A DNA stretch of 64,000 nt from Amyelois transitella (Eukaryota; Arthropoda; Insecta; Lepidoptera; Pyralidae), in the NCBI RefSeq assembly GCF_032362555.1, contig NC_083536.1, positions 4,898,001 through 4,962,000 of the forward strand, written 5' to 3'. The position numbers were made by a program, and so were the translations under genes. Positions 13,412 through 39,816 of this stretch are shown piece by piece. The notes under the pieces are model-generated. The model was given only the letters and a program-made list of their open reading frames with translations. It was not told the DNA's origin and did not search any database. The number at the start of each line of letters is the position of its first letter. Within the stretch, counting starts at the first letter, position 1.

Positions 13412-15074
13412 TGAGGAATATAATTCCCATTAACAAACAAAATTTCTTGAACCATTTTAATTAGAAATTTTTTAACTAAAACTATATCTATGGAAATTAA
13501 CTAAGACTAATAAAGTAACAAAGAAATGAATAAAAAATGAAGAATATATTAAAAAATCAACTCACACTATAAAACTTATCCAACACTAACTAAATATACT
13601 ATCAAAAATATCAAATCTAATCAACAAATCAAAAATTAACTGAAATAGAGAGTAAAATAAGTTAAATAAGTCAAGTTAAAAGTTAATGAATCAAACGAAT
13701 AATAATTTGAAATCAAAATATTTGTAGTGTGTAATATGTAGTTTCGCGTATGTCCGCTAGGGGCGCTGCTAAAATTACACGATAAATTAAAATATTTTAC
13801 GCTACCTAGCTAAATGACGGTAACGAAACCATAGCGCGATCTATCTCGATGCCAACGCCATCTATCGAGCATCGAGACAACTCGTGATAGTTAATAGAAA
13901 ATAAAATTCGGGTGTTTTATTTATGCATACCGATTACGCCGAGATTTATGGACCGATTTACGTGATTCTTTTTCTGTTCGGTAGAGTATACTTTCAAGTT
14001 GGTCCCGTTGTACCTAGTCAGGATCTGATAATGGTATTCCAGGGAAATCAAGGGCAAACCTCAAATTTACAGGCAATTACGTTTTTGGCAATTTCATAGA
14101 TCTGTTTAAGTATTTGCGTCTGATAGTCATCATCCCATGTGAATGAGCTGATGATGGAAGGTACAACTCCTCAACGGTTAGGAGTTGAAAGAAAATTCTT
14201 ACGAAGTTATACGTACATGTGAGGCTATTAGGTTGACCTGATAATAAAAAGTAAATCTCATTAACGTTAAGAATTTAGGTGAAAATGGATGCGGACAAAT
14301 TTCGTAGCTGTTTGTATGGGTAGTGTTAACACAAAATAGGGATTAATAGGCGTGATGTTATTAATGTTATGCATGTATGTACATAATTATGTATGTTATT
14401 ATGTATGTTAAAGAGACGACTGAAAGTTGTCATACAAAGTCTTTTTTTTTTAAGGATGGGAAATCATCAAATGACCTCTCCCGCTCTGGGTGGAACGGAA
14501 GGGAGTGTCAGACTTTTACTGACTAAAACCCACCTCGTTCCTTCAGTTGCCCTTTGCGTTCCGGGGCCACGGCATCTCGTTAGAACTTTCCCGCAGCCCC
14601 GGCTCAGTTTATCCCGTTTCCCCCCCTTGGGGGTTGACATTTCAAAAATCCCTTCTTAGTGCTCACTTATGTTACTAAAGGAACCTCTGTTCAAAATCTC
14701 AGACTCCTATACCGAGCGGTTTCGGCTGTGCGTTAATAAATCAGTCACCCAATCGCACCCCCTAAATCACGATTGGAGGGTAGTTTGAAAAAACTTATAA
14801 TGTCAAACATATTTACTTTCCTATGTACGTGTTCATGCCAAGTTTCAAGTTTATAAACCCAAGGAATAAGATTTTTCATAGAAACGTTTTTACCCCTTTT
14901 CCCCCCCTTGGGGGTTGAATTTCCAAAAATCCTTTCTTAGTGCTCCCCTACATATCCCAAGGAACCTACATTCCAAATTTCAGCTGTCTACGACCAGTAG
15001 TTTCGACTGTGCGTTGTCTGTCAGTCAGTCACTCAGTAACGGAAGAGTTTTATATATATAGATAAGATGGGATA

Positions 15075-16537: not shown

Positions 16538-17171
16538 TTATGTTAATATCAGTACTTGAAGTCTTCTACGAGTAGTTCGAGCAGAAATTGTTTTATTTAT
16601 TTGTTCTGAAAACTCAGCAGCGAGCTCTGAAGATGTTTTTTTCCTGTTTCTTAATGACTCTCTCAGTATCTGACGATCCTGACGGTATGTGGTGATGCGC
16701 TTGCGCCCGTTTCTCGGTCTATTTTCATGTGACCCGGTAGCAGAGAATCGCTGAATAGCATATTGCACGGATCGGCGCGAACATTTCACAGTTTTGGAAA
16801 TCTCTACTTGTGATTTCCCTTGCTCATGCAGAAGCTGTATCTGCACTCGTTTTTCTAAAGAAAGTTCGTTTCGTTTTGGCATATCGCAACTATAACACTT
16901 AAAACTTTGAAATAAAATACCAAAGGCGCACTAGATCACTGGATTTTGTCACAACGAGCGATGGTAGCGAACTAAAAAATAAATGCAAAAATTGTAAAAG
17001 ACACATTTTATTGCACCCAGGTGTTTTATTGCCAGCTGCGGTATAGGTCATTATCTTAAAATCTTTGTAGATAACCGACAAAAGAATACTTAAACAATAG
17101 ATTTGGGTTTCTCCCATAATTACCGTGATCGAGTGAAATTTGTAAGGTGCTCAATACTTTTGGCCAAGACT
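16538..17171 (-). mobile_element. Tc1-like element remnant
   Basis: The minus frame 16882-16538 encodes the N-terminal HTH pair of a Tc1 transposase (LSLEKRVQIQLLHEQGKSQ, CSRRSVQYAIQRF, then the GRKR-type linker). The catalytic domain is missing. An outer end, CAGTCTTGGCCAAAAGTATTG read inward from 17171, lies next to TA and looks like a Tc1 inverted repeat. The partner repeat was not found. Confidence 0.65.
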
Positions 17172-17229
17172 GTATTTATGTCAAGCATTCATAGTATTCA
17201 AGTTTTTTTTTATATTTTGCAGGAACACT

Positions 17230-18308
17230 ATGGAAGAAATATTCTCCGACCTACTAGCTGAACCAAGCAACCAGTTTGAGGGATTCGTTCGAATGTCAGC
17301 ATCTGATTTCGAGTTAATTTTAAGCAAAGTTGGGCCTTTGATAGAAAAACAAAAAACTAGATTTCGTGTACCCATACCTGCCAAAACTCGACTAGCAGTT
17401 ACTTTACGATATCTAGCTACAGGAGATAGCTATAGAAGCTTACATTATTTGTTCAAGATGTCTTACCAAGTTATTTCCAATATTGTAAGGGAATGTTGCA
17501 CTGCTCTCATATCTGTATTGAAAGATATGATCAAGTTACCTGAGAATGAAAACGAATGGCCACAAAAGGAATCTGATTTTAGGGATACATTTCCTCATTG
17601 CTTGGGAGCAATCGATGGTAAACATGTTGTCTTGGTGTCACCGATTCACAGTGGGTCTGACTATTTTAATTATAAGCATTCGTTTAGTATTGTGTTGATG
17701 GCCTTAGTGGATCGTAATTTTTGTTTCATGTTCTGCGATATAGGCAGTAAGGGTAGAATCAGTGATGGTGGTATATTCAGAGATTGTGTTTTATTCGAAA
17801 AGCTTCAGAAAAATTCCTTAAACATTCCGCAACCTGAACCACTTTCTGATGGCGATGTAAATATGCCTTACGTTTTTGTTGCTGACAATGCATTTCCATT
17901 ACACCCAAACATAATAAAACCTTTTCCCGGAGACCACCCTCAAGGAAGTATGCAACGAAATTTCAATCGTAAACTTTCTTCTGTTCGTATTGTTGTGGAA
18001 AACGCATTTGGTGTTATGTCTGCACGATTTCGAGTACTTAGAAAACCTATAGCTCTACAACCAAGCGAAGCTTACATAACTTTTTAAGAAAAAGTTCAAA
18101 CTCACGGTCAATTTATACCCCATCGGGCTACACTGACACAGTCGTCAACGGAGGAATAACAAATCCTGGAACTTGGAGAATAGACATTGGAGAAGGCGAA
18201 GGCGCTTTCAAGCCAATGAAGAATATTGCGCGACGTTCATCTTTAACAGCAATCCAGGTCAGGAATAAATTCGCAGAACATTTCATGACCACGAATAATA
18301 ATTTGTAA
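17230..18308 (+). pseudogene. Harbinger transposase (DDE_Tnp_4), frameshifted
   Basis: Nuclease of PIF/Harbinger elements. The frame 17230-18087 contains an N-terminal HTH part (RLAVTLRYLATGDSYRSLHYLFKMS) and the catalytic motifs GAIDGKH (first Asp), VADNAFPL (second Asp) and VVENAFGVM (Glu). After ITF the frame stops at 18085. The C-terminal part resumes in another frame (FAEHFMT...) to TAA at 18308. An acceptor (TTTTGCAG at 17222) just before the ATG, and an upstream ATG exon at 16346-16439 ending in a consensus GTAAGT, suggest a 5' exon, but the phases do not join in the sequence as given. The start at 17230 is therefore tentative. Confidence 0.85.
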
Positions 18309-18495
18309 GTGTCGACAACACAAAATAGGTGCTCCCGTCAGGGGCAGAGCAAGGGGGAGCACGAGGGAGTACCCCTTTGCTATTCAAATAAACGAATGTC
18401 TTGTTTTTATTACTTTGGAAAATAAAACAACATACTATATATTTTGTCTTTCATTTATTTGTTTCTTGAAGTAATTAACATGGCATTTACAATTT

Positions 18496-19925
18496 TTATT
18501 TATCTTTAATTATCTGTATTTCACCGGACTCTGTAATAACTATTTGTGAGGCACGAGTTGGCGGTAGTATTTCTAGGTAATTGTCTTGGTGAGTTTGAAC
18601 TGAAAACTGTTCTGGAGGTAGACTATTTGAATCGTGAGGTGGAGGCGACTGGTATGTTTGGTGATTTGGTGATGGGCTGAATGCTTGATGGTGTGGTGAC
18701 ATGGATGTGGAGGGACCTGGATGTGATTGGTATGTTTGATGATTTGGTGATGAGCTGAATGCTTGATGGTGTGGTGACATGGATGTGGAGGGGCCTGGAG
18801 GCGACTGGTATGGTTGATGATTTGGTGATGGGCTGAATGCTTGATGGTATGGAGACATGGATATGGAGGGGCCTGGAGGCGACTGGTATGGTTGATGATT
18901 TGGTGATGGGCTGAATGCTTGATGGTGTGGAGACAGGGCTTTAGAAAACTGAGGTACTGCAGACTGCTGCTCAAGTCGATCTGCCATACATGCACGAAAG
19001 ACTAAATTGTGAATATCATTCATTAATATCTCACGCGTGTTTGGATTTCTTATTTTTTTTTAGTTTACTTGCGAGCAGTCTTCCGAACATGTAATATTCA
19101 TCATCTTTATTATCTTTCATGAATTCAAAAGCTTCATCCATTTGACGTCGCGCTGCTTTGATTTCTTGAGGTAACTCATCTCGCGCTTGTCTTTTTTTAC
19201 TATAATTTAGAGATTTATTTTCTTTTGGACGAGTTTCATTTTCTTCTTGTATATTTGGCGAAGCTGCTTCTGTTCCAGTAGAAAAATGAGGACTATTCTG
19301 ATTTCCATTATACCCATCACCTTCACTTCTTTCTAGATTCTCAATGTCGTCATGTGTCTGAAAAGAAAATAAAAGAATATTTATTATATAGGACAGATGA
19401 ACAGACAGTAGAACGGACAGACAGATGGACAGATAAATAGACTGACATCTGAGTGATAGCAATAGGGTTCCAACTATGTAGTATTTTTCGGACTGGTATA
19501 GGTGGTATGTGATTATTTTACAATGAAACACTCACTACTGTTGACAGACTAATATAATAACTTACCTGCGTATTAAATGTGCGGCCACTGTCATATACTC
19601 CTCGTAGGAAATTGTCCATCGTTTCGAAAGCAAACCAATTAGTTGTATACACGTCATCTCTGCCAGCTCCGGATTTCAAAGATTTTTTAATTTTATTTAA
19701 ATGGGTTCTATAGTAACCCATCAGGCTTTCCTTCTTTTTTTTCATTTCTTCAATAGTTGTTTCAAAAGGTACTAATTCCATCAGTCGGCGCCAAGCATCA
19801 CTTTGCGTTCCTCGATTCTTGAAAGTTTTCAGTTTTGGATCCCACAAACATGGTTCTGTTTGCAGAAGCTCGAGAAACGCAATTACTTTCTCGTTACTCC
19901 ACTCCATAGTATGTATTGCAAACAC
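18496..19925 (-). pseudogene. Harbinger MADF/BESS DNA-binding protein
   Basis: Partner protein of Harbinger transposases that binds the element ends and brings the transposase to the nucleus. Exon 1 (19925 to about 19567) encodes a MADF domain (FLELLQTEPCLWDP, WRRLMELV, LMGYYRTHLNKIKK, NWFAFETM). A donor GTAAGT follows, with an acceptor near 19361. Exon 2 encodes an acidic linker and DDEYYMFGRLLASKLKKN, a BESS-like region. A stop at 19034-19032 is one base out of phase with a further 175-residue frame (19023-18496) starting in DIHNLVFRACMADRL and carrying four 26-residue Pro/His/Gln repeats. I infer one gene with a single-base frame lesion. Confidence 0.7.
18620..18930 (-). repeat. 78-bp coding tandem repeat, 4 units
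   Basis: Four near-identical 78-bp units, coding for 26 residues each around HHQAFSPSPNHQPYQS, in the tail of the MADF protein. The substitutions differ between units, so the array is not brand new. Confidence 0.85.
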
Positions 19926-20162
19926 AACACACGTGCGATCCCGTCGCGCTCACGACGCACACTGACTGACGTAGTGTGACCGCTTTATCGCATTAATTCT
20001 CGCGTTATTCTCTTTGATGTACCGCCACTTGAATTATCGCCTAACGTCAAACGACAATGTAAATGCCGTTGTCAAATTATTGCGTTAAGTCGTGGCTACA
20101 TCTACGGTTAACGTCCCTTAACGCGATAATTAATGGCATTTCCCGGTAGTGTGGCCCCAGCA

Positions 20163-20620
20163 TTAAACAGAGTGCATTTTTCAAAGCACACCTTTTTTAT
20201 GATGAACACAATTTAACACCTGATTATTCTCCTCAAAATAATCCTCATATAATTTAAGTAATTTAGGACAACCCTTTTCACCCAGTTCTGTAATTTTACA
20301 ATCGTTGCATAACTCTTGAATCCATCCAATCTTCTCATTTCCTTTAATTAAGACATTTTTACTTTTTAAATATGGAATTATAACTCGCCGGAATTCTCGA
20401 TAATCGATAAACCCTTCATACCAATGTAGTCCCAGATTTTATTTTCTTTATTTTATTTATATTATTTTCTAACCATCGAACTCGCTTTTTTCTTCATCAG
20501 AAAGAGTTTTTAAAGAATAAGGTGCTTTAACCAAGAAAGTTTGTGTGTATTCCTTAGTTGCAATCGAAAATTCCTTAACAATAAAATTATTTTTCAAATC
20601 CTTAAACCCTTGTAAATCTA
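20163..20620 (-). pseudogene. conserved virus-like element protein (D-x-Q-G-F start), broken
   Basis: Two minus-frame pieces: DLQGFKDLKNNFIVKEFSI through APYSLKTLSDEEK, then after a shift GLHWYEGFIDYREFRRV through LCNDCKITELGEKG. The layout (Asp-x-Gln-Gly-Phe, WL, HHGL.W.DG-like, Cys-rich tail) resembles a conserved ORF I know next to capsid genes of insect Polinton-like clusters, possibly an RNase H-fold nuclease; that assignment is weak. The tail continues across the Harbinger insertion to about 15950. At least two frame lesions. It is the last gene, just downstream of the capsid C-terminal part. Confidence 0.45.
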
Positions 20621-20637
20621 TGATTATTTAGTAGCAT

Positions 20638-20968
20638 TCATGATAACTTCTTAACAATGTTGCTCAATGGCTTGTATTCAAATATGCAATCGTTTAGTAT
20701 CAGACAATATGCAGCAGTTTGATCGGGTATGTCTTGGTCAGATTCGAATTCAACTCTCACATCAATTGATCCCTTTAACATTTCATGTTGTCGTGAACAG
20801 TCTATAACAAATAACGGAGCTATGTCTCTAAATTCTTTTAATCCCATCAACGGCTCCGCTCGGCGACTATGATAAGACTGATGAAATCTTGCGTATTGTT
20901 CATATATTAATGAATATCTGTTGTCTCAGAAACTAATATTTAAACCTTCATACGGATAATATAAAGAA
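20638..20968 (-). pseudogene. major capsid protein, C-terminal part
   Basis: C-terminal piece of the double-jelly-roll-type capsid protein of the virus-like element. Visible motifs: APLFVIDCSRQHEML, SIDVRVEFESD, TAAYCLILNDCIFEYKPLS, near the C-terminus in this family, with stop at 20638. It is separated from its N-terminal part (22752-23629) by a Helitron whose A|T target lies exactly at the break. A TGA at 20928-20926 interrupts it in addition. The gene is therefore inactive even without the insertion. Only one copy of this C-terminal part exists, while the N-terminal part is present three times. Confidence 0.75.
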
Positions 20969-22597
20969 CTAGCTGTGCCCGCGACTTCGTCCGCGTGGAA
21001 TTGTTATTTTGAGCATCATTGAAGCCCACAAGGATGAATAATTTTCCCCGTTTTTTTTCACATAGTCCATTTTTTGTTTTCTCGATAAAGTTGCAGCGTG
21101 ATGTTATATAGCCTAAAGCCTTCCTCGATAAATGGTATATTCAACGCAAAAATAATTTTTCATTTCGAATCAGTAGTTCCTAAGATTAGCGCGTTCAAAC
21201 AAACAAACTCTTTAGCTTTATAATGTTAGTATAGATTATGCAAAAAAATTGATGAACCTACGTGAGTGCTTGTTTGAGGATGCTATTCAATCACGCAAAT
21301 TCTATTGGATGGATTTTGATGAAACTTACGTACACGGGAAGAATAATGCCTGGAATAGAACATAGTTTATTTTTCTTACAAAAGCAAAGCTCGGAAGCGC
21401 AGCTGTTAAAAAACGAATAAATTCTAAAGACAAAAAAAGGAAATTATAAAAATGGAAAGTTAAAGTACCTATCTCTTTGTTTACAACATTTGCTGTCTTG
21501 CCCATTGGAGACATCACAAATTAACTGTCACAGCTGGTGACCCGCGAGCAAGCGACGTAGAGCTGTCCGTGTGAGAAGCAAATCGTCCTGAGGTCGACTC
21601 CGGCTGCTCCAAGTGTTTGACCTTGCGATTTGTTAATTGTCATCGCGAAACATATAGCCATTGGAAACTGTACACGCTTAATTTGAAATGGAAAATTGTT
21701 GGGAATGAGCGGAATGCGCGGTATAAAAACAATTTCACCCGCTGCACAACCAGTAAGAATTTTAGCTTCTACTATAATGTTATGAAGCGACACCACTTTA
21801 AGGCAGTCCCATTACAAAATGGAATGTCTACTTTTAGAGCAATTGTATGCGCGGGCAGTCCAGATGCCGAAAGTGAATTAAGGAACTATACCGAATAAGT
21901 ACCGATGCTGCAAGCATCGGTACTATCTAATTTTGCCAGCGGCTACAATCACGTTATTTCTTAAATTCTCGTGGCGCCATCTCGTATCGGATGGTCAAAA
22001 AATAAATATCTAAACCACGGGAACTAAATCAATGGTGAAATGGTAAGTACTGGCGTTACTACATGTGTGTTATTCCTGCTAATCTTGAGGAGCATGGCAA
22101 CCGTCGCCGATGCGGGGCGCGTCAAACTACCTACATAAAAAAAAATTCTTCTCAAAGATGTAGTGAAACGGTAAGTGCTGGCGAAACTAAATCAATGAAT
22201 AAAAGAAGTTTAAATTATATAATTAATTAAAAATTTTGCCAGCGGCTACAATTGTGTTATTTCTTAAATTCTCATGAGGCGCCATCTCGTATCGGGTGGG
22301 CAAAAAATAAATATCTAAACCACGGGAACTAAATAAATAAACAAAGCATAATTAATTTAATCAATAAAATGCTATTTTTTCAATCATAATAAATATGATA
22401 ATTAATTATTTATAGCTTTTTATATCGATTCAAAAATGACGAAGTTCCAAACAAACTTGCACCCCCTATTTCATCCCCTTGGTATAGAATTTCAGGATAA
22501 AAAGTAGCCTATATTCTAATCCAGGTTACTAACTATATCTGTGCCGAATTTCGTTCAGATCCGTTCGGTAGATTTTGCGTGATGCGCGTACAAACAT

Positions 22598-22634
<37 letters not shown>

Positions 22635-22751
22635 AATTAAAAAAAAATGTTTTGGCTTCTATTGACCCTAAAAAGACCCCTTACAATATTTTTTCTTAAA
22701 TATCTTCAATGTACAGACAATGTTCAGTTACAGTTTTATTATATGTATGGA
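20969..22751 (-). mobile_element. Hel-B::Lep1 Helitron inside capsid gene
   Basis: TC at 22751 (preceded by A) to CTAG at 20972-20969 (followed by T); 1783 bp. From 5' to 3': Hel-B 5' part with (GACA)n at 22595-22632, a perfect palindrome at about 21899-21924, a helicase tail (21796-21521) and a Lep1-type 3' end. The two flanks fit together in the capsid reading frame, so the insertion is clean. The 5' half up to the palindrome also recurs at 25174 and 28467 as part of the tandem array. Confidence 0.85.
21521..21796 (-). pseudogene. Helitron helicase C-terminal remnant
   Basis: 91-residue frame with [30 protein letters not shown] and [13 protein letters not shown], the end of the PIF1-like helicase. 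It lies within the Helitron that splits the capsid gene. Confidence 0.8.
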
Positions 22752-23629
22752 TTTAAAAATACTCTTACGTCTCGAACATGACAATGGTCGAACTCTGCCA
22801 TCGACATTGTTGCATTACTTTTACGGTTTGTTTGTAAAGCAATAATAACAAATCTTGGTTTCTCCAACTGTGATGAAGTTTTAATGGACCAAGTATGTTT
22901 CCTGGTTTTGGGTAACAATGGGTACTCATACAAATCCCAGTTACGAAACGCTAAGGTTATCGCTCGATCTTTTTCTAAATGTTTAAGTAAATTAATTCTT
23001 TCACGATCCGACACTCGAATATGAGGAACTCGCCAAACTATTTTATTTATAATTATATCTTCGACAATTTCTCCAGAACTTAGTAATAAGGAATTGAGAT
23101 TTGTTTTACTTCTCAATAGTACTAATTCATGTTTACAGTTCATTATGATTTTTTCATAATCTTCTGCAAAACCTAATATTTTATTTAACGGTATATACAC
23201 AGAAAATCCTCCATCGGAGGTAATGCCTGAAGGAGACCAACCCCAAACTTTTGCGCTTTTGGATTCATTTTCGTTCAATGATAGATAAGATTTAATTGTT
23301 GTGGTAATACCTGCATTTTTAATCTTATCTATTTCTATCCCATTTAGTTCATATCTTATATCTTGAAATAGAAATAGTACAGGGTTGTTTACAAAATGCA
23401 CACTCGGCACTTTTTCTTTGCCAGCGTTATTTTGTTTATACACATCGACTCTGCCCTCAATATACAAACAGCTGAGTGCAGGCAACACATACAAGTCTTG
23501 TTGATTAATCGGTATCCGTATTTCATAATTTTTGTTAAAACTTGATACATAAGGCTTATACGAATGATATTCAAAACTTTCTATGCTATTGTCGTAAGAC
23601 GCGGGTTGGCATATATTTAAAATGTTCAT
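22752..23629 (-). pseudogene. major capsid protein, N-terminal part (unit 1)
   Basis: About 292 viral residues from the ATG at 23629. Motifs toward the end (WRVPHIRVSD, then EKPRFVIIALQTNRK, FDHCHVRDVRVFLN) match the first jelly roll and inter-roll region of the capsid proteins in insect Polinton/adintovirus-type elements. This protein would form the hexameric shell units. It is cut at 22752 by the Hel-B::Lep1 insertion. Its continuation is at 20968-20638, so unit 1 is the only unit next to the original C-terminal part. The ATG overlaps the stop of the 48-aa basic ORF (ATGA). The frame itself has no internal stop. Confidence 0.75.
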
Positions 23630-23772
23630 ATTAACAAACCTAGTAGCCTTAAAAAGGCTTTATTTTTTTTTGTTAGTTTTTTTTTAAATCGCAGCGATGT
23701 TTTTTTGTGAGGTGATCCTTTAGGACTGAGTCTTTTTATAGGAGTGAAGGTGTTTTTATGAAAATTTAACAT
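23626..23772 (-). CDS. 48-aa very basic small protein (unit 1)
   Basis: ATG at 23772, stop TGA ending 23626. It overlaps the penton end by 7 bases and the capsid ATG by ATGA, so it fills the gap between the two genes. 14 of 48 residues are Lys or Arg (for example RFKKKLTKKNK), and the C-terminus is hydrophobic (LRLLGLLI). I know no family for it. Tight overlaps on both sides and the charge suggest a small nucleic-acid-binding virion protein or a translational coupling ORF (inference). Confidence 0.5.
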   Translation of the reverse strand: MLNFHKNTFTPIKRLSPKGSPHKKTSLRFKKKLTKKNKAFLRLLGLLI

Positions 23773-24440
23773 TTTGGTTTAAAGTGCAAATACAACTGTA
23801 CTTCTTCACCGCGTAAGTTAATTTGCTTGTTTTCTGCGTCTAACAACCTTATATTGAGTGAATTTATTGAGCTCTGATTGACAGGAAAGTAAATTAAATT
23901 CTTAGGTATTTCAATATTTCTGTAACCAGGGGGTACGTTAGGCACAAATTCATAAATAATATGGCTTGCTTTTCCGTTTACAAATGATCCGCTGATAACA
24001 TCACATTCGATGCGTACGATAGTTGTTGCTAAAATGCTGACAGGATGCTGAGATTCAGTACTTATATTAGCTTTGATTGATTCTCTATTAAATCCTAATA
24101 TTTTTCCGATTGAATTATTTTTATTACAGTGTACATCTTTGGAACAAAAAATTCTTGTTTTTAACGTATTATTATTACAACCCAATTTCAACGCTGCATT
24201 CTTTATGTTACTTTTCAGATAATCACAAATATCTTGAAACTCATACGATCCTTCAGGAATTTCAATAACTTCATCTTTTCCATAGTAAAATTTGTTATTT
24301 TTTGCGTCTATGTTAGGTATAGAATTAAATGTAGAAAAATACAAAAGCCCACAGTCGTACTCTCCATTCAGTTGTAATGTAGGGGAATAGTTAGTTGTTA
24401 AAAATTCTCCTCTGCCTGTTATTGACACAGTGAAAGACAT
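23766..24440 (-). CDS. penton-like minor capsid protein (unit 1)
   Basis: Intact 224-residue frame. It opens MSFTVSITGRGEFL, continues with SYEFQDICDYLK and IGKILGFNR, and then the conserved block IVRIECDVISGSFVNG...HIIYEFVPNVPPGY and LRGEEVQLYLHFK near the end. This is the layout of the penton/minor capsid proteins (single jelly roll, vertex protein) of Polinton- and adintovirus-type elements. It lies between protease and capsid genes, transcribed with them on the minus strand. Identical copies occur in units 2 and 3. The assignment rests on pattern and context. Confidence 0.7.
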   Translation of the reverse strand: MSFTVSITGRGEFLTTNYSPTLQLNGEYDCGLLYFSTFNSIPNIDAKNNKFYYGKDEVIEIPEGSYEFQDICDYLKSNIKNAALKLGCNNNTLKTRIFCSKDVHCNKNNSIGKILGFNRESIKANISTESQHPVSILATTIVRIECDVISGSFVNGKASHIIYEFVPNVPPGYRNIEIPKNLIYFPVNQSSINSLNIRLLDAENKQINLRGEEVQLYLHFKPKC

Positions 24441-24472
24441 TTTTATACTGATACAAATATATTTTTATTATA

Positions 24473-24800
24473 TTATTTATACAAATGATGTTTCCAAAAT
24501 TCTTTTAAAAACTTTAAACAAAGGTGTCCGCAGTTTATAGTACCATAAGATTGATATTGCAAATAATTATAATTTTAAAGGACTTAAATAATATACTAGT
24601 TCCAATGGTGGTTTTAAATCACCAAAACTATCAAAATATTCACAGTAATTAATATATTTAACGTAGGCTACCCAATTTGTTCCAGGATTGTCAGAACTAT
24701 CTAAATTTAATACAGCACACTCAATTTTTTTTGGTTTCCGAGGAAGAGTATCTCTCATATACACTCCGCGAAAGTAAGGAATATCAATAGCATGTTCCAT
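24473..24800 (-). pseudogene. adenain-like cysteine protease, frameshifted (unit 1)
   Basis: Maturation protease of the adenain/Ulp1 (C5/C48) type. The first frame (24800-24567) has YFRGVYMRDTLP, NLDSSDNPGTNWVAY and YFDSFG. After a stop at 24567 the cysteine motif INCGHLCLKF is in another frame, and the tail stops at 24473. In this family the His of G-T-H-W and the Asp/Asn of the F-D-S-x-G block work with the Cys. Here the His position is Asn (GTNW), so the copy lacks the catalytic His as well as frame continuity. All three units share both lesions. Confidence 0.75.
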
Positions 24801-24841
24801 TATATTTAAATTGGTTAGTGCTCGTCTGGGTAGCCGCTTTT

Positions 24842-25198
24842 TCAGTTTTTTGAAGGACTTAGATATAATCCTGCTCCCTTTTTATATGGTTTTATATACA
24901 AGGCCTTTCCTAAAGCAACAGATTCCATCATCTTGTTATGTCGTTTAGACTCTTCAAAGTTTTTCTGAGCTACTTTGTAATCATTAACAGCCTTTGCTAT
25001 ACCTGCCGCGCCACCAGCAAGTGAACCTAAAGCTGACAGACCGGCAAAGATGGGAATGAGCGGTAAAAAGCCTCCGCATTTAGGAATGGGTATACATCGT
25101 AGTAAACGTGTACGTGATCCGTTATTTTTTAAAAATAGTCTTTTTGCGGTTGCATATGCAAAGTTTATAAGTAGAATAAGTACCGATGCTGCAAGCAT
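24842..25198 (-). CDS. X-like core protein with Helitron-derived start (unit 1)
   Basis: 118-residue frame. The viral part (from 25169) has a Gly/Ala-rich hydrophobic segment GGFLPLIPIFAGLSALGSLA, then AKAVNDYKVAQKN, KRHNKMMESVALG and KPYKKGAGLYLSP, resembling the precursor core protein X (mu)-like proteins of adenovirus-like elements. The native N-terminus is lost. Instead an ATG in the Helitron palindrome opens the frame and adds about 10 hydrophobic residues (MLAASVLILL). The chimeric ORF is complete on paper. Whether it is expressed cannot be seen. Units 1 and 2 share it; unit 3 has the native N-terminus. Confidence 0.65.
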   Translation of the reverse strand: MLAASVLILLINFAYATAKRLFLKNNGSRTRLLRCIPIPKCGGFLPLIPIFAGLSALGSLAGGAAGIAKAVNDYKVAQKNFEESKRHNKMMESVALGKALYIKPYKKGAGLYLSPSKN

Positions 25199-25886
25199 CG
25201 GTACTATCTAATTTTGCCAGCGGCTACAATCACGTTATTTCTTAAATTCTCGTGGCGCCATCTCGTATCGGATGGTCAAAAAATAAATATCTAAACCACG
25301 GGAACTAAATCAATGGTGAAATGGTAAGTACTGGCGTTACTACATGTGTGTTATTCCTGCTAATCTTGAGGAGCATGGCAACCGTCGCCGATGCGGGGCG
25401 CGTCAAACTACCTACATAAAAAAAAATTCTTCTCAAAGATGTAGTGAAACGGTAAGTGCTGGCGAAACTAAATCAATGAATAAAAGAAGTTTAAATTATA
25501 TAATTAATTAAAAATTTTGCCAGCGGCTACAATTGTGTTATTTCTTAAATTCTCATGAGGCGCCATCTCGTATCGGGTGGGCAAAAAATAAATATCTAAA
25601 CCACGGGAACTAAATAAATAAACAAAGCATAATTAATTTAATCAATAAAATGCTATTTTTTCAATCATAATAAATATGATAATTAATTATTTATAGCTTT
25701 TTATATCGATTCAAAAATGACGAAGTTCCAAACAAACTTGCACCCCCTATTTCATCCCCTTGGTATAGAATTTCAGGATAAAAAGTAGCCTATATTCTAA
25801 TCCAGGTTACTAACTATATCTGTGCCGAATTTCGTTCAGATCCGTTCGGTAGATTTTGCGTGATGCGCGTACAAACATACAGACAG

Positions 25887-25927
<41 letters not shown>

Positions 25928-26044
25928 AATTAAAAAAAAATGTTTTGGCTTCTATTGACCCTAAAAAGACCCCTTACAATATTTTTTCTTAAATATCTTC
26001 AATGTACAGACAATGTTCAGTTACAGTTTTATTATATGTATGGA
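25174..26044 (-). mobile_element. Hel-B 5' half (unit 2)
   Basis: TC at 26044 down to the palindrome at about 25180-25205, with no helicase tail and no 3' end. It joins the X gene through the AGTA filler at 25170-25173. (GACA)n at about 25880-25925. Confidence 0.85.
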
Positions 26045-26922
26045 TTTAAAAATACTCTTACGTCTCGAACATGACAATGGTCGAACTCTGCCATCGACAT
26101 TGTTGCATTACTTTTACGGTTTGTTTGTAAAGCAATAATAACAAATCTTGGTTTCTCCAACTGTGATGAAGTTTTAATGGACCAAGTATGTTTCCTGGTT
26201 TTGGGTAACAATGGGTACTCATACAAATCCCAGTTACGAAACGCTAAGGTTATCGCTCGATCTTTTTCTAAATGTTTAAGTAAATTAATTCTTTCACGAT
26301 CCGACACTCGAATATGAGGAACTCGCCAAACTATTTTATTTATAATTATATCTTCGACAATTTCTCCAGAACTTAGTAATAAGGAATTGAGATTTGTTTT
26401 ACTTCTCAATAGTACTAATTCATGTTTACAGTTCATTATGATTTTTTCATAATCTTCTGCAAAACCTAATATTTTATTTAACGGTATATACACAGAAAAT
26501 CCTCCATCGGAGGTAATGCCTGAAGGAGACCAACCCCAAACTTTTGCGCTTTTGGATTCATTTTCGTTCAATGATAGATAAGATTTAATTGTTGTGGTAA
26601 TACCTGCATTTTTAATCTTATCTATTTCTATCCCATTTAGTTCATATCTTATATCTTGAAATAGAAATAGTACAGGGTTGTTTACAAAATGCACACTCGG
26701 CACTTTTTCTTTGCCAGCGTTATTTTGTTTATACACATCGACTCTGCCCTCAATATACAAACAGCTGAGTGCAGGCAACACATACAAGTCTTGTTGATTA
26801 ATCGGTATCCGTATTTCATAATTTTTGTTAAAACTTGATACATAAGGCTTATACGAATGATATTCAAAACTTTCTATGCTATTGTCGTAAGACGCGGGTT
26901 GGCATATATTTAAAATGTTCAT
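26045..26922 (-). pseudogene. major capsid protein, N-terminal part (unit 2)
   Basis: Same protein as at 22752-23629, without a residue difference in the translated part. It is cut at the same base by Hel-B, but here no C-terminal part follows: the Helitron half is fused to the X gene of unit 1. It can only encode the truncated protein, ending a few Helitron codons later at 26032. Confidence 0.75.
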
Positions 26923-27065
26923 ATTAACAAACCTAGTAGCCTTAAAAAGGCTTTATTTTTTTTTGTTAGTTTTTTTTTAAATCGCAGCGATGTTTTTTTG
27001 TGAGGTGATCCTTTAGGACTGAGTCTTTTTATAGGAGTGAAGGTGTTTTTATGAAAATTTAACAT
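26919..27065 (-). CDS. 48-aa very basic small protein (unit 2)
   Basis: Same 147-base frame as at 23626-23772 with the same overlaps to penton and capsid genes. Confidence 0.5.
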   Translation of the reverse strand: MLNFHKNTFTPIKRLSPKGSPHKKTSLRFKKKLTKKNKAFLRLLGLLI

Positions 27066-27733
27066 TTTGGTTTAAAGTGCAAATACAACTGTACTTCTTC
27101 ACCGCGTAAGTTAATTTGCTTGTTTTCTGCGTCTAACAACCTTATATTGAGTGAATTTATTGAGCTCTGATTGACAGGAAAGTAAATTAAATTCTTAGGT
27201 ATTTCAATATTTCTGTAACCAGGGGGTACGTTAGGCACAAATTCATAAATAATATGGCTTGCTTTTCCGTTTACAAATGATCCGCTGATAACATCACATT
27301 CGATGCGTACGATAGTTGTTGCTAAAATGCTGACAGGATGCTGAGATTCAGTACTTATATTAGCTTTGATTGATTCTCTATTAAATCCTAATATTTTTCC
27401 GATTGAATTATTTTTATTACAGTGTACATCTTTGGAACAAAAAATTCTTGTTTTTAACGTATTATTATTACAACCCAATTTCAACGCTGCATTCTTTATG
27501 TTACTTTTCAGATAATCACAAATATCTTGAAACTCATACGATCCTTCAGGAATTTCAATAACTTCATCTTTTCCATAGTAAAATTTGTTATTTTTTGCGT
27601 CTATGTTAGGTATAGAATTAAATGTAGAAAAATACAAAAGCCCACAGTCGTACTCTCCATTCAGTTGTAATGTAGGGGAATAGTTAGTTGTTAAAAATTC
27701 TCCTCTGCCTGTTATTGACACAGTGAAAGACAT
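27059..27733 (-). CDS. penton-like minor capsid protein (unit 2)
   Basis: Identical 224-residue frame to that at 23766-24440, including the block IVRIECDVISGSFVNG and the C-terminal GEEVQLYLHF. Intact. Confidence 0.7.
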   Translation of the reverse strand: MSFTVSITGRGEFLTTNYSPTLQLNGEYDCGLLYFSTFNSIPNIDAKNNKFYYGKDEVIEIPEGSYEFQDICDYLKSNIKNAALKLGCNNNTLKTRIFCSKDVHCNKNNSIGKILGFNRESIKANISTESQHPVSILATTIVRIECDVISGSFVNGKASHIIYEFVPNVPPGYRNIEIPKNLIYFPVNQSSINSLNIRLLDAENKQINLRGEEVQLYLHFKPKC

Positions 27734-27765
27734 TTTTATACTGATACAAATATATTTTTATTATA

Positions 27766-28093
27766 TTATTTATACAAATGATGTTTCCAAAATTCTTTTA
27801 AAAACTTTAAACAAAGGTGTCCGCAGTTTATAGTACCATAAGATTGATATTGCAAATAATTATAATTTTAAAGGACTTAAATAATATACTAGTTCCAATG
27901 GTGGTTTTAAATCACCAAAACTATCAAAATATTCACAGTAATTAATATATTTAACGTAGGCTACCCAATTTGTTCCAGGATTGTCAGAACTATCTAAATT
28001 TAATACAGCACACTCAATTTTTTTTGGTTTCCGAGGAAGAGTATCTCTCATATACACTCCGCGAAAGTAAGGAATATCAATAGCATGTTCCAT
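27766..28093 (-). pseudogene. adenain-like protease, frameshifted (unit 2)
   Basis: Same as the copy at 24473-24800: GTNW in place of GTHW, stop after the first 77 residues, cysteine motif in another frame. Confidence 0.75.
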
Positions 28094-28134
28094 TATATTT
28101 AAATTGGTTAGTGCTCGTCTGGGTAGCCGCTTTT

Positions 28135-28491
28135 TCAGTTTTTTGAAGGACTTAGATATAATCCTGCTCCCTTTTTATATGGTTTTATATACAAGGCCTT
28201 TCCTAAAGCAACAGATTCCATCATCTTGTTATGTCGTTTAGACTCTTCAAAGTTTTTCTGAGCTACTTTGTAATCATTAACAGCCTTTGCTATACCTGCC
28301 GCGCCACCAGCAAGTGAACCTAAAGCTGACAGACCGGCAAAGATGGGAATGAGCGGTAAAAAGCCTCCGCATTTAGGAATGGGTATACATCGTAGTAAAC
28401 GTGTACGTGATCCGTTATTTTTTAAAAATAGTCTTTTTGCGGTTGCATATGCAAAGTTTATAAGTAGAATAAGTACCGATGCTGCAAGCAT
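28135..28491 (-). CDS. X-like core protein with Helitron-derived start (unit 2)
   Basis: Identical to the chimeric 118-residue frame at 24842-25198; the start codon lies in the Helitron palindrome at 28473-28499 and the viral part begins at 28462. Confidence 0.65.
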   Translation of the reverse strand: MLAASVLILLINFAYATAKRLFLKNNGSRTRLLRCIPIPKCGGFLPLIPIFAGLSALGSLAGGAAGIAKAVNDYKVAQKNFEESKRHNKMMESVALGKALYIKPYKKGAGLYLSPSKN

Positions 28492-29179
28492 CGGTACTAT
28501 CTAATTTTGCCAGCGGCTACAATCACGTTATTTCTTAAATTCTCGTGGCGCCATCTCGTATCGGATGGTCAAAAAATAAATATCTAAACCACGGGAACTA
28601 AATCAATGGTGAAATGGTAAGTACTGGCGTTACTACATGTGTGTTATTCCTGCTAATCTTGAGGAGCATGGCAACCGTCGCCGATGCGGGGCGCGTCAAA
28701 CTACCTACATAAAAAAAAATTCTTCTCAAAGATGTAGTGAAACGGTAAGTGCTGGCGAAACTAAATCAATGAATAAAAGAAGTTTAAATTATATAATTAA
28801 TTAAAAATTTTGCCAGCGGCTACAATTGTGTTATTTCTTAAATTCTCATGAGGCGCCATCTCGTATCGGGTGGGCAAAAAATAAATATCTAAACCACGGG
28901 AACTAAATAAATAAACAAAGCATAATTAATTTAATCAATAAAATGCTATTTTTTCAATCATAATAAATATGATAATTAATTATTTATAGCTTTTTATATC
29001 GATTCAAAAATGACGAAGTTCCAAACAAACTTGCACCCCCTATTTCATCCCCTTGGTATAGAATTTCAGGATAAAAAGTAGCCTATATTCTAATCCAGGT
29101 TACTAACTATATCTGTGCCGAATTTCGTTCAGATCCGTTCGGTAGATTTTGCGTGATGCGCGTACAAACATACAGACAG

Positions 29180-29228
<49 letters not shown>

Positions 29229-29345
29229 AATTAAAAAAAAATGTTTTGGCTTCTATTGACCCTAAAAAGACCCCTTACAATATTTTTTCTTAAATATCTT
29301 CAATGTACAGACAATGTTCAGTTACAGTTTTATTATATGTATGGA
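28467..29345 (-). mobile_element. Hel-B 5' half (unit 3)
   Basis: TC at 29345 to the palindrome near 28473-28499, ending at the AGTA filler (28463-28466). It has the longest (GACA)n of the three units (about 29174-29225). Confidence 0.85.
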
Positions 29346-30223
29346 TTTAAAAATACTCTTACGTCTCGAACATGACAATGGTCGAACTCTGCCATCGACA
29401 TTGTTGCATTACTTTTACGGTTTGTTTGTAAAGCAATAATAACAAATCTTGGTTTCTCCAACTGTGATGAAGTTTTAATGGACCAAGTATGTTTCCTGGT
29501 TTTGGGTAACAATGGGTACTCATACAAATCCCAGTTACGAAACGCTAAGGTTATCGCTCGATCTTTTTCTAAATGTTTAAGTAAATTAATTCTTTCACGA
29601 TCCGACACTCGAATATGAGGAACTCGCCAAACTATTTTATTTATAATTATATCTTCGACAATTTCTCCAGAACTTAGTAATAAGGAATTGAGATTTGTTT
29701 TACTTCTCAATAGTACTAATTCATGTTTACAGTTCATTATGATTTTTTCATAATCTTCTGCAAAACCTAATATTTTATTTAACGGTATATACACAGAAAA
29801 TCCTCCATCGGAGGTAATGCCTGAAGGAGACCAACCCCAAACTTTTGCGCTTTTGGATTCATTTTCGTTCAATGATAGATAAGATTTAATTGTTGTGGTA
29901 ATACCTGCATTTTTAATCTTATCTATTTCTATCCCATTTAGTTCATATCTTATATCTTGAAATAGAAATAGTACAGGGTTGTTTACAAAATGCACACTCG
30001 GCACTTTTTCTTTGCCAGCGTTATTTTGTTTATACACATCGACTCTGCCCTCAATATACAAACAGCTGAGTGCAGGCAACACATACAAGTCTTGTTGATT
30101 AATCGGTATCCGTATTTCATAATTTTTGTTAAAACTTGATACATAAGGCTTATACGAATGATATTCAAAACTTTCTATGCTATTGTCGTAAGACGCGGGT
30201 TGGCATATATTTAAAATGTTCAT
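29346..30223 (-). pseudogene. major capsid protein, N-terminal part (unit 3)
   Basis: Third copy of the capsid N-terminal part, again cut by Hel-B at the same base and without a C-terminal part. This unit lies next to the native upstream genes (X with its own N-terminus, PLA2), so by gene order it is the 5'-most unit of the cluster on the minus strand. Confidence 0.75.
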
Positions 30224-30366
30224 ATTAACAAACCTAGTAGCCTTAAAAAGGCTTTATTTTTTTTTGTTAGTTTTTTTTTAAATCGCAGCGATGTTTTTTT
30301 GTGAGGTGATCCTTTAGGACTGAGTCTTTTTATAGGAGTGAAGGTGTTTTTATGAAAATTTAACAT
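30220..30366 (-). CDS. 48-aa very basic small protein (unit 3)
   Basis: Third copy of the small basic frame, overlapping the penton end and the capsid start as in the other units. Confidence 0.5.
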   Translation of the reverse strand: MLNFHKNTFTPIKRLSPKGSPHKKTSLRFKKKLTKKNKAFLRLLGLLI

Positions 30367-31034
30367 TTTGGTTTAAAGTGCAAATACAACTGTACTTCTT
30401 CACCGCGTAAGTTAATTTGCTTGTTTTCTGCGTCTAACAACCTTATATTGAGTGAATTTATTGAGCTCTGATTGACAGGAAAGTAAATTAAATTCTTAGG
30501 TATTTCAATATTTCTGTAACCAGGGGGTACGTTAGGCACAAATTCATAAATAATATGGCTTGCTTTTCCGTTTACAAATGATCCGCTGATAACATCACAT
30601 TCGATGCGTACGATAGTTGTTGCTAAAATGCTGACAGGATGCTGAGATTCAGTACTTATATTAGCTTTGATTGATTCTCTATTAAATCCTAATATTTTTC
30701 CGATTGAATTATTTTTATTACAGTGTACATCTTTGGAACAAAAAATTCTTGTTTTTAACGTATTATTATTACAACCCAATTTCAACGCTGCATTCTTTAT
30801 GTTACTTTTCAGATAATCACAAATATCTTGAAACTCATACGATCCTTCAGGAATTTCAATAACTTCATCTTTTCCATAGTAAAATTTGTTATTTTTTGCG
30901 TCTATGTTAGGTATAGAATTAAATGTAGAAAAATACAAAAGCCCACAGTCGTACTCTCCATTCAGTTGTAATGTAGGGGAATAGTTAGTTGTTAAAAATT
31001 CTCCTCTGCCTGTTATTGACACAGTGAAAGACAT
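30360..31034 (-). CDS. penton-like minor capsid protein (unit 3)
   Basis: Third intact copy of the 224-residue penton-like frame, identical in translation to units 1 and 2. Confidence 0.7.
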   Translation of the reverse strand: MSFTVSITGRGEFLTTNYSPTLQLNGEYDCGLLYFSTFNSIPNIDAKNNKFYYGKDEVIEIPEGSYEFQDICDYLKSNIKNAALKLGCNNNTLKTRIFCSKDVHCNKNNSIGKILGFNRESIKANISTESQHPVSILATTIVRIECDVISGSFVNGKASHIIYEFVPNVPPGYRNIEIPKNLIYFPVNQSSINSLNIRLLDAENKQINLRGEEVQLYLHFKPKC

Positions 31035-31066
31035 TTTTATACTGATACAAATATATTTTTATTATA

Positions 31067-31394
31067 TTATTTATACAAATGATGTTTCCAAAATTCTTTT
31101 AAAAACTTTAAACAAAGGTGTCCGCAGTTTATAGTACCATAAGATTGATATTGCAAATAATTATAATTTTAAAGGACTTAAATAATATACTAGTTCCAAT
31201 GGTGGTTTTAAATCACCAAAACTATCAAAATATTCACAGTAATTAATATATTTAACGTAGGCTACCCAATTTGTTCCAGGATTGTCAGAACTATCTAAAT
31301 TTAATACAGCACACTCAATTTTTTTTGGTTTCCGAGGAAGAGTATCTCTCATATACACTCCGCGAAAGTAAGGAATATCAATAGCATGTTCCAT
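31067..31394 (-). pseudogene. adenain-like protease, frameshifted (unit 3)
   Basis: Third copy with the same Asn at the catalytic His position and the same frame break. These lesions therefore predate the triplication. Confidence 0.75.
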
Positions 31395-31435
31395 TATATT
31401 TAAATTGGTTAGTGCTCGTCTGGGTAGCCGCTTTT

Positions 31436-31870
31436 TCAGTTTTTTGAAGGACTTAGATATAATCCTGCTCCCTTTTTATATGGTTTTATATACAAGGCCT
31501 TTCCTAAAGCAACAGATTCCATCATCTTGTTATGTCGTTTAGACTCTTCAAAGTTTTTCTGAGCTACTTTGTAATCATTAACAGCCTTTGCTATACCTGC
31601 CGCGCCACCAGCAAGTGAACCTAAAGCTGACAGACCGGCAAAGATGGGAATGAGCGGTAAAAAGCCTCCGCATTTAGGAATGGGTATACATCGTAGTAAA
31701 CGTGTACGTGATCCGTTATTTTTTAAAAATAGTCTTTTTGCGGTTGCATATGCAAAGTTTATAGTTGAATGCTTGTCCTTTGATTTAATATTTTTAAGCT
31801 TAGATTGTATATTTTTCACTACTTTCATAAATGAACGAACTCCAGCGCCAGCTTTGAGTTTTGCTTTCAT
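31436..31870 (-). CDS. X-like core protein with native N-terminus (unit 3)
   Basis: 144 residues from the ATG at 31870. A basic N-terminal part (MKAKLKAGAGVRSFMKV, then Lys-rich) precedes the hydrophobic GGFLPLIPIFAGLSALG segment and the KRHNKMMESVALG tail seen in units 1-2. In adenoviruses the X precursor is a small DNA-condensing core protein with a similar Gly/Pro/Ile segment; the match is by pattern only. The start overlaps the end of the PLA2 frame by 4 bases (31867-31870). In related elements the two can be one polypeptide, so a short deletion plus shift may have separated them here. Confidence 0.65.
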   Translation of the reverse strand: MKAKLKAGAGVRSFMKVVKNIQSKLKNIKSKDKHSTINFAYATAKRLFLKNNGSRTRLLRCIPIPKCGGFLPLIPIFAGLSALGSLAGGAAGIAKAVNDYKVAQKNFEESKRHNKMMESVALGKALYIKPYKKGAGLYLSPSKN

Positions 31871-32060
31871 TGCATTTTTTGTCGAATGTTTAAATCCTTA
31901 TTATTGTATGCAATATCGTGGTACATATAAGCTTCATCCAATTTATTTATACCTCGCTCACCTCTTAATAATCGTTTTTGAAGTTTAGTACCTGGTCCAC
32001 AAAACTGATATCCAGGAATATGTAGTTCGAAAGGTAAATTATTGATGACGTTATTTAAAA
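31867..32060 (-). pseudogene. parvovirus-type phospholipase A2 domain, main part
   Basis: Carries both signature motifs of the PLA2 domain found in parvovirus VP1 and in Polinton/adintovirus-type elements: the calcium loop GYQFCGPGTKL and the catalytic MYHDIAY. In viruses this domain breaches the endosomal membrane. The domain stops early at 31867. Its first codons lie at 38828-38810, separated by the 6.7-kb Helitron/LINE block; phases across the insertion agree. The open frame to the right of 32060 is Helitron sequence and not part of the protein. Confidence 0.75.
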
Positions 32061-32612
32061 CTAGCTGTGCCCGCGACTTCGTCCGCGTGGAATTGTTATT
32101 TTGAGCATCATTGAAGCCCACAAGGATGAATAATTTTCCCCGTTTTTTTTCACATAGTCCATTTTTTGTTTTCTCGTTAAAGTTGCAGCGTGATGTTATA
32201 TAGCCTAAAGCCTTCCTCGATAAATGGTATATTCAACGCAAAAATAATTTTTCATTTCGAATCAGTAGTTCCTAAGATTAGCGCGTTCAAACAAACAAAC
32301 TCTTCAGCTTTATAATGTTAGTATAGATTATGCAAAAAAATTGATGAACCTACGTGAGTGCTTGTTTGAGGATGCTATTCAATCACGCAAATTCTATTGG
32401 ATGGATTTTTATGAAACTTACGTACACGGGAAGAATAATGCCTGGAATAGAACATAGTTTATTTTTCTTACAAAAGCAAAGCTCGGAAGCGCAGCTGTTA
32501 AAAAACGAATAAATTCTAAAGACAAAAAAAGGAAATTATAAAAATGTAAAGTTAAAGTACCTATCTCTTTGTTTACAACATTTGCTGTCTTGCCCATTGG
32601 AGACATCACAAA

Positions 32613-32888
32613 TTAACTGTCACAGCTGGTGACCCGCGAGCAAGCGACGTAGAGCTGTCCGTGTGAGAAGCAAATCGTCCTGAGGTCGACTCCGGCTGCT
32701 CCAAGTGTTTGACCTTGAGATTTGTTAATTGTCATCGCGAAACATATAGCCATTGGAAACTGTACACGCTTAATTTGAAATGGAAAATTGTTGGGAATGA
32801 GCGGAATGCGCGGTATAAAAACAATTTCACCCGCTGCACAACCAGTAAGAATTTTAGCTTCTACTATAATGTTATGAAGCGACACCAC
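32613..32888 (-). pseudogene. Helitron helicase C-terminal remnant
   Basis: 91-residue frame, the same tail as at 21521-21796 ([23 protein letters not shown]). Confidence 0.8.
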
Positions 32889-33699
32889 TTTAAGGCGGTC
32901 CCATTACAAAATGGAATGTCTACTTTTAGAGCAATTGTATGCGCGGGCAGTCCAGATGCCGAAAGTGAATTAAGGAACTATACCGAATAAGTACCGATGC
33001 TGCAAGCATCGGTACTATCTAATTTTGCCAGCGGCTACAATCACGTTATTTCTTAAATTCTCGTGGCGCCATCTCGTATCGGATGGTCAAAAAATAAATA
33101 TTTAAACCACGGGAACTAAATCAATGGTGAAATGGTAAGTACTGGCGTTACTACATGTGTGTTATTCCTGCTAATCTTGAGGAGCATGGCAACCGTCGCC
33201 GATGCGGGGCGCGTCAAACCCTACCTACATAAAAAAAAATTCTTCTCAAAGATGTGGTGAAACAGTAAGTGCTGGCGAAACTAAATCAATGAATAAAAGA
33301 AGTTTTAATTATATAATTAATTAAAAATTTTGCCAGCGGCTACAATTGTGTTATTTCTTAAATTCTCATGAGGCGCCATCTCGTATCGGGTGGGCAAAAA
33401 ATAAATATCTAAACCACGGGAACTAAATAAATAAACAAAGCATAATTAATTTAATCAATAAAATGCTATTTTTTCAATCATAATAAATATGATAATTAAA
33501 TATTTATAGATTTTTATATCGATTCAAAAATGACGAAGTTCCAAACAAACTTGCACCCCCTATTTCATCCCCTTGGTATAGAATTTCAGGATAAAAAGTA
33601 GCCTATATTCTAATCCAGGTTACTAACTATATCTGTGCCGAATTTCGTTCAGATCCGTTCGGTAGATTTTGCGTGATGCGCGTACAAACATACAGACAG

Positions 33700-33740
<41 letters not shown>

Positions 33741-34172
33741 AATTAAAAAAAAAATGTTTTGGCTTCTATTGACCCTAAAAAGACCCCTTACAATATTTTT
33801 TCTTAAATATCTTCAATAGAATAGAATAGAATAGAATAGAATAGATTTATTTTCAAAATTGGATACAAGGTATCACTTATTGACGTCACATAACTTAAAT
33901 CTAATTATAACTACTACCGCTTCCAAAGCGCATGTGTAGAAGAAGCGGCGGAACAAACTACACTGCAGCATTTTCATAGGACGTCAATTTACAAATATAG
34001 ATCTCTTAAATCTAAATCGTGGACGAATGCACATTGTCTACATTAAAAAACATGTATGAATGTAGAACTGATTATGTCAATACGAATATTTCGTCAAATA
34101 AAATAAATATAAAATAAAATATGTACATACTGTACAAATTATGTCCAGATCATGTCAAAAATACACAAGCAT

Positions 34173-37672: not shown

Positions 37673-38112
37673 ACTATCAGATGTACAGACAATGTTCAGT
37701 TACAGTTTTATTATATGTATGGATGTATGGATTAAAAATTTTGCCAGCGGCTACAATTGTGTTATGTCTTAAATTCTCATAAGGCGCCATCTCGTATCGG
37801 GTGGGCAAAAAATAAATATCTAAACCACGGGAACTAAATAAATATTTACAAAGCATAATTAATTTAATCAATAAAATGCTATTTTTTCAATCATAATAAA
37901 TATGATAACTAATTATTTAAAGATTTTTATATCGATTCAAAAATGACGAAGTTCCAAACAAACTTGCACCCCCTATTTCATCCCCTTGGTATAGAATTTC
38001 AGGATAAAAAGTAGCCTATATTCTAATCCAGGTTACTAACTATATCTGTGCCGAATTTCGTTCAGATCCGTTCGGTAGATTTTGCGTGATGCGCGTACAA
38101 ACATACAGACAG

Positions 38113-38153
<41 letters not shown>

Positions 38154-38650
38154 AATTAAAAAAAAAATGTTTTGGCTTCTATTGACCCTTAAAAGACCCC
38201 TTACAATATTTTTTCTTAAATATCTTCAATGTACAGACAATGTTCAGTTACAGTTTTATTATATGTATGGATTAAAAATTTTGCCAGCGGCTACAATTGT
38301 GTTATTTCTTAAATTCTCATGAGGCGCCATCTCGTATCGGGTGGGCAAAAAATAAATATCTAAACCACGGGAACTAAATAAATAAACAAAGCATAATTAA
38401 TTTAATCAATAAAATGCTAATTTTTCAATCATAATAAATATGATAATTAAATATTTATAGATTTTGATATCGATTCAAAAATGACGAAGTTCCAAACAAA
38501 CTTGCACCCCCTATTTCATCCCCTTGGTATAGAATTTCAGGATAAAAAGTAGCCTATATTCTAATCCAGGTTACTAACTATATCTGTGCCGAATTTCGTT
38601 CAGATCCGTTCGGTAGATTTTGCGTGATGCGCGTACAAACATACAGACAG

Positions 38651-38691
<41 letters not shown>

Positions 38692-38809
38692 AATTTTAAA
38701 AAAAATGTTTTGGCTTCTATTGACCCTTAAAAGACCCCTTACAATATTTTTTCTTAAATATCTTCAATGTACAGACAATGTTCAGTTACAGTTTTATTAT
38801 ATGTATGGA

Positions 38810-39807: not shown

Positions 39808-39816
39808 TGTGTTGGT

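Follow-up and report, generated by a model that had tools for sequence, protein, structure and literature searches.

Adintoviruses are characterised, in the part of PMC11071296 drawn on here, by a hexon that is recognisable by BLASTP, an integrase joining an rve core to a chromodomain, and a PolB with an OTU-like domain. Helitrons occur across Lepidoptera and in insect viruses, and one of those listed in the cited section of PMC5704228 has TC/CTAG ends. In C. elegans, tandem duplications of ~100 bp to 10 kb attributed to polymerase theta (Pol-theta), together with templated insertions, are described in the excerpt of PMC8654963 used here. Features recalling all three systems meet in a 64,000-nucleotide stretch of the Amyelois transitella genome (NC_083536.1, positions 4,898,001 to 4,962,000; hereafter the window). 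The locus is an endogenous adintovirus interrupted by transposons and locally triplicated in tandem, mostly ordinary genome decay that happens to be cleanly recorded. Its capsid genes and part of a Helitron are present three times, very probably as the outcome of a nested insertion followed by local duplication.

A Helitron inserted in the hexon gene

A complete non-autonomous Helitron of 1783 nt, running from 5' TC to CTAG 3' on the reverse strand (20969–22751), lies between an A (22752) and a T (20968) of the hexon gene, and is a plain insertion at this A|T site. The gene, also on the reverse strand, encodes the double-jelly-roll major capsid protein. Its N-terminal frame (residues 1–292, 22754–23629; PF21738, 5.3e-71 for the frame 22739–23629) stops at the Helitron, and the C-terminal remainder (residues 308–402, 20638–20925; PF21738, 1.8e-24), which has an in-frame stop, lies on the opposite side. 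When the two pieces were compared separately with 11 intact hexons, a common gap of 15 residues appeared in all 11: the pieces covered 1–292 and 308–402 in seven, the second piece covered 308–404 in three slightly longer proteins, and P0018 gave the same picture but shifted. Elsewhere in the same genome, hexon was contiguous across the insertion site at 35 of 38 places read, and the array Helitron stood at the site in none of the 38. At the other three (L033, L034 and L040) hexon did not run on cleanly and had lost shorter or longer stretches, and nothing at the site matched this Helitron. These 38 distinct places came from 131 hexon rows outside the window, being the 27 best and 11 picked by hand, with L036, which overlaps L027, counted once; the remaining rows, which often represent fragments of a single copy, fall outside the count. 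Site comparisons kept matches of at least 60 nt in one table and at least 40 nt in another. Four other virus copies (L016, L023, L029 and L043) have Helitrons of the same family nearby but not at the hexon site; in L016 and L029 the Helitron occupies nearly the same position upstream of penton.

The inserted element has TC and CTRR ends and an A|T insertion site without target duplication, contains a helicase remnant and carries a duplicated 107-nt module. A Helentron/DINE-type identity, prompted by a microsatellite, was rejected; the TC/CTAG ends and the A|T site agree with a canonical Helitron. Inside the element, palindrome scanning and folding identified a perfect 27-nt palindrome with 12-bp arms and a 3-nt loop (21898–21924, with copies at 25179–25205 and 28472–28498) that folds at -13.1 kcal/mol (z -4.9). 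The window holds eight palindromes whose arms reach 12 bp or more, six of them copies of this one, and 10 plain shuffles of the window gave a mean of 0.1. The palindrome was rejected as the Helitron 3' terminus, as complete copies extend ~0.9 kb further before reaching CTAG; the two helicase-bearing relatives in the window lack the full form and keep only part of it, which also disfavours a terminal role. In a test for a 3' hairpin the terminal region folded no better than shuffles (z 0.17), the strong hairpin being internal.

Relatives of this Helitron lie in the window at 11643–13412, 32061–33817 plus 37681–37724, 58710–60265 (with an internal gap) and 62843–64000 (cut by the window end). 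The second of them, on the reverse strand, is in the same virus element and continues at 37681–37724 past an inserted long interspersed nuclear element (LINE). Related copies contain a Pif1 2B domain at 6926–7564 and 62108–62692; no Rep domain turned up in them, no separate search having been aimed at Rep. At 37681–38810 and 10736–11643, head-to-tail repeats of the Helitron 5' part precede complete copies, with three of the four joints seen at a common internal AATTTTTAA|T site. Nested insertion and then collapse of direct repeats would explain these two 5'-part arrays.

The tandem array and its joints

Three head-to-tail units, all read on the reverse strand, occupy 21893–25173, 25174–28466 and 28467–31763 (3281, 3293 and 3297 nt). 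The first two close with a 4-nt AGTA filler (25170–25173 and 28463–28466), leaving 21893–25169 and 25174–28462 as their bodies; unit 3 ends at 31763 without filler, and native virus sequence resumes there. Unit 1 comprises the 5' part of the Helitron (859 of its 1783 nt), the N-terminal 292 codons of hexon, penton, a protease-like frame and part of a pX-like gene. Unit 2 repeats a Helitron 5' part (25174–26044) and then the virus part, and unit 3 does likewise (Helitron 5' part 28467–29345) and runs on into the native virus. All three units thus retain a Helitron 5' end, identically oriented, with a single 3' end that belongs to the complete copy at the left end of the array.

The units differ in an ACAG tract (22590–22632, 25871–25925 and 29164–29226), by 12 and 8 nt, each a multiple of 4; the ACAG stretches measure 54, 66 and 74 nt. 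Outside the tract all 3223 sites (695 + 2528, split at the tract) are the same in all three units, and in the three-way alignment the sole non-tract difference is the right end of unit 3, with native sequence instead of filler. Both internal joints read ...GCAAAGTTTATA-AGTA-GAATAAGTACCGATG..., and the palindrome begins 5 nt inside each unit. Together with a BLAST table of the region (matches longer than 40 nt within 20400–34000), these readings confirm the triplicated array as genuine in the assembled sequence. The preliminary description of this DNA had anticipated much of this, namely three units of about 3.3 kb whose lengths differ by multiples of 4 in the tract, each with half a Helitron, and the same AGTA filler at two junctions beside a perfect palindrome. 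Among units, the Helitron halves show no differences at 805 sites, versus 6 to 13 from three other copies of the family; therefore all of them derive from one insertion.

Origin of the array

We consider it very likely that a nested Helitron insertion was followed by a microhomology-mediated or templated tandem duplication and then by unequal sister exchange. After the Helitron had entered the hexon gene, a 3.3-kb tandem duplication would have joined a mid-Helitron point, 5 nt before the internal hairpin, to a position within viral pX. The joint itself reads pX (...TTTATA), AGTA, Helitron (GAATAAGTACC...). ATA-AGTA is matched by GAATAAGTA next door, on the Helitron side, and the filler is therefore readable as a short templated copy made after a 3-nt microhomology. 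ATA, a 3-nt match, would have served to join a broken or stalled end, and the 4-nt insert was apparently copied from the Helitron side; marks of this kind are left by Pol-theta end joining and by comparable template switches, either of which may have acted here. The hairpin is a plausible site of the stall or break. Unequal exchange between the homologous repeats would then have raised two units to three, with slippage altering the ACAG tracts. The Helitron would thus have contributed a breakpoint and not mobility, the capsid genes being passengers.

The common AGTA joint and the identical units support the earlier proposal of one joining event followed by amplification. A duplication within the virus before integration is excluded by the Helitron sequence, already inserted in hexon, that the unit contains. 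Assuming 2.9e-9 mutations per site per generation, the absence of differences between units limits the triplication to an age of about 107,000 generations or less, if there was no gene conversion. The hexon piece of the window differs from 27 other copies at 11 to 19 positions per about 878 nt, which makes the triplication look far younger than the virus copy.

Several observations weigh against this account. The filler signal is weak: 2.5% of 200,000 simulated joints were templated by chance in any of four ways, so that the microhomology and templated-looking insert at this joint, a kind of mark left by Pol-theta duplication, are suggestive only. In the cited part of PMC8654963, wild-type C. 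elegans rarely shows Pol-theta duplications, which accumulate when helq-1 is mutated. The joint would look the same after tandem duplication, reintegration of an excised circle or template switching during replication. The hairpin beside the break could also point to a Helitron-type stop, and tandem arrays of the 5' part of the same family exist elsewhere in the window.

Among the rivals, an excised circle, in which the segment left as an extrachromosomal circle, multiplied and recombined back, would presumably give a joint of identical appearance and agrees with units identical outside the tract, but it requires extra steps and is improbable. The same perfect identity could reflect an assembly artefact with fewer real units than assembled. 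The ACAG stretch is different in each unit, however, and thus the assembler held distinct sequence; nor would a mid-Helitron to mid-pX joint with filler be expected from repetition of a single intact unit, and we regard an artefact as very unlikely. Equally unlikely is Helitron rolling-circle replication, which would start at the 5' end, stop at or beyond the internal palindrome and acquire viral DNA by end bypass. It can draw on the same-orientation 5' end in each unit with one 3' end at the left, on the 5'-part arrays of the family at 10736–11643 and 37681–38810, and on tandem Helitron arrays by terminator bypass, as cited in the portion of PMC4067079 used here. On the other side, the virus DNA is in native order with its native continuation on both sides of the array, the joint has neither CTRR|T nor TC, the palindrome is not terminal and its full form is missing from two related helicase-bearing copies, and a hexon search of the same genome (134 matches) found no dispersed copy.

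That search bears directly on the preliminary description, which suggested that a Helitron had amplified captured virus structural genes. No Helitron–hexon fusion outside the array was present among the 134 matches, only the three window rows extending to residue 296 of the query, where the fused hexon frame ends in Helitron-encoded sequence; the words of the joint were likewise found in none of the best 120 of 294 homologues of the chimeric pX frame. A composite Helitron would enclose the captured DNA between 5' and 3' ends at a new A|T site; the array instead has native virus flanks, and no second site was present among the hexon matches. The capture claim is thus not supported, given a plain insertion, no 3' end within the unit and no fusion elsewhere among these matches. 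Of the overall interpretation, the single joint with later amplification and the breakpoint by the palindrome survive, while capture and amplification by the Helitron do not, the joint having no CTRR|T or TC. As for the suggestion that the palindrome may be a break or rolling-circle stop point, the breakpoint does adjoin a strong hairpin, one that is internal and not the Helitron terminus. By the description's own reasoning that a junction found only here points to simple exchange, local exchange is favoured on the strength of the hexon search. The array might still constitute a latent composite Helitron, with three in-line 5' ends (22751, 26044 and 29345) upstream of one 3' end (20969), although we consider this very unlikely; if it did, a Helitron transposing from the second or third of these 5' ends would take one or two capsid cassettes with it. 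Should such composites move, or Helitron machinery have driven the amplification, Helitrons would be a multiplication route for endogenous virus structural genes. In the open-licence literature we found no paper joining a Helitron with an adintovirus, and none on a Helitron with Polinton, capsid and tandem duplication together.

The virus remnant, its chromosome and described systems

Judged by its sequence, the virus part is a decayed and broken remnant of an endogenous adintovirus. A protein search with hexon residues 1–292 returned 1224 matches, the best being 402-aa proteins of up to 89% identity; nine of the best 120 were named by organism, all nine from moths or butterflies, and the named relatives include Loxostege, Ostrinia, Parnassius, Spodoptera, Chrysodeixis and Helicoverpa. 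Over the whole N-terminal piece, hexon is 66% identical to 'hexon [Spodoptera moth adintovirus 1]' (P0080), so that a BLASTP-recognisable hexon is present. The integrase is also represented, by two reverse-strand frames (38874–39816) with an rve core (PF00665, 7.2e-16) and a C-terminal chromodomain (PF00385, 5.4e-5), the latter at 23.5 bits against a cut-off of 25.1 and thus sub-threshold. No PolB match was seen among the window frames scanned with Pfam, which included 19 of 25 further stop-to-stop frames of at least 100 aa, the six omitted being repeats of array or Helitron copies. The element is truncated and was therefore filed as an adintovirus remnant.

The remaining virus frames are on the reverse strand as well. 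The penton-like protein of 224 aa (23766–24440), repeated like the hexon piece in units 2 and 3, has 189 homologues, the best at 89%; its Pfam penton score was weak (0.051, below cut-off), and a PDB sequence search with it gave no match. As for hexon, the homologue lists for this protein and the pX-like one comprise the best 120 (of 189 and 294). An interrupted frame at 31161–31475, repeated at 24567–24881 and 27860–28174, is probably an adenain-like protease, as judged by a motif; a Pfam scan of it gave no match. The native copy of the gene that we presume to be pX (31436–31897; 294 homologues) contains the right breakpoint, at 31763, and a PLA2-like frame (31867–32060; PF08398, 1e-8) is interrupted by the second Helitron. 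An IMG/VR scan with hexon gave eight pattern matches with no relative confirmed, and PHROGs gave weak matches only (E 0.027 to 0.16). Elsewhere in the window are a Harbinger-like transposase (DDE_Tnp_4) with a MADF gene at 17146–19949, including 78-bp repeats at 18640–18935, and, where a LINE reading frame ends, a hairpin whose perfect arms are 36 bp long (48254–48330).

The window corresponds to C32:4898001-4962000; the genome has 33 contigs totalling 327 Mb. From C5 to C30, the five contigs inspected become successively shorter, and after them come C31 (14.0 Mb), C32 (12.4 Mb) and C33, a mitochondrial contig of 15,205 bases with COX1 and ND5 domains. This order fits autosomes, Z, W and mitochondrion; C32, which is repeat-rich, would then be the female-specific W, and we consider this probable. 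On a W chromosome the third unit is unlikely to have come from exchange with a homologue and would have arisen by unequal sister exchange. The genome-wide hexon search gave at least 134 matches (132 of the 134 candidates were scored, and counts are lower bounds), 125 of them on C32 against 5 expected in proportion to its size; these are matches and not copies, a broken copy yielding several. Sixteen of 20 C32 hexon copies compared were 0–5 substitutions per about 878 nt from a copy on another contig. There has probably been a recent, large accumulation of adintoviruses on the probable W, and shared segmental duplication stands beside it as an alternative. Two inverted hexon pairs on C32 (4800227/4810175 and 6853488/6868204), 10–15 kb apart and with equal scores, look like local inverted duplications, and L019 has a further tandem duplication of about 370 nt in the capsid region. 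The concentration on one probable W chromosome may outweigh the array in importance. The array itself is a clean case of nested insertion and local tandem duplication mimicking a transposon with captured virus genes. It is also a plausible precursor of real capture: when a tandem duplication has its breakpoint inside a Helitron, foreign DNA comes to lie between Helitron ends without any transposition having occurred.

Compared with adintoviruses such as Spodoptera moth adintovirus 1, the window element shares the hexon and has penton-like, PLA2- and pX-like and rve-chromodomain integrase frames nearby, but it is endogenous, two Helitrons and a LINE interrupt it, and its frames are broken, with no PolB among those scanned. 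Its array Helitron resembles the lepidopteran non-autonomous CTAG-end Helitrons in its TC/CTAG ends, A|T target and helicase remnant, a likeness of features and not of sequence to a named family (e.g. lep1), and departs from them in the internal palindrome with 12-bp arms and the duplicated 107-nt module. As in Helitron gene capture by the end bypass or filler DNA models (in the section of PMC6544945 cited), gene sequence stands beside Helitron sequence in a repeated unit; unlike in capture, the virus genes keep their native order and place, and there are no new enclosing Helitron ends and no dispersed copy among the hexon matches. Pol-theta tandem duplications, as far as the excerpt of PMC8654963 describes them, resemble the array in their kilobase scale, in microhomology and in a short insert that looks templated; the array differs in having three units instead of two, and Pol-theta is a candidate enzyme in its origin.

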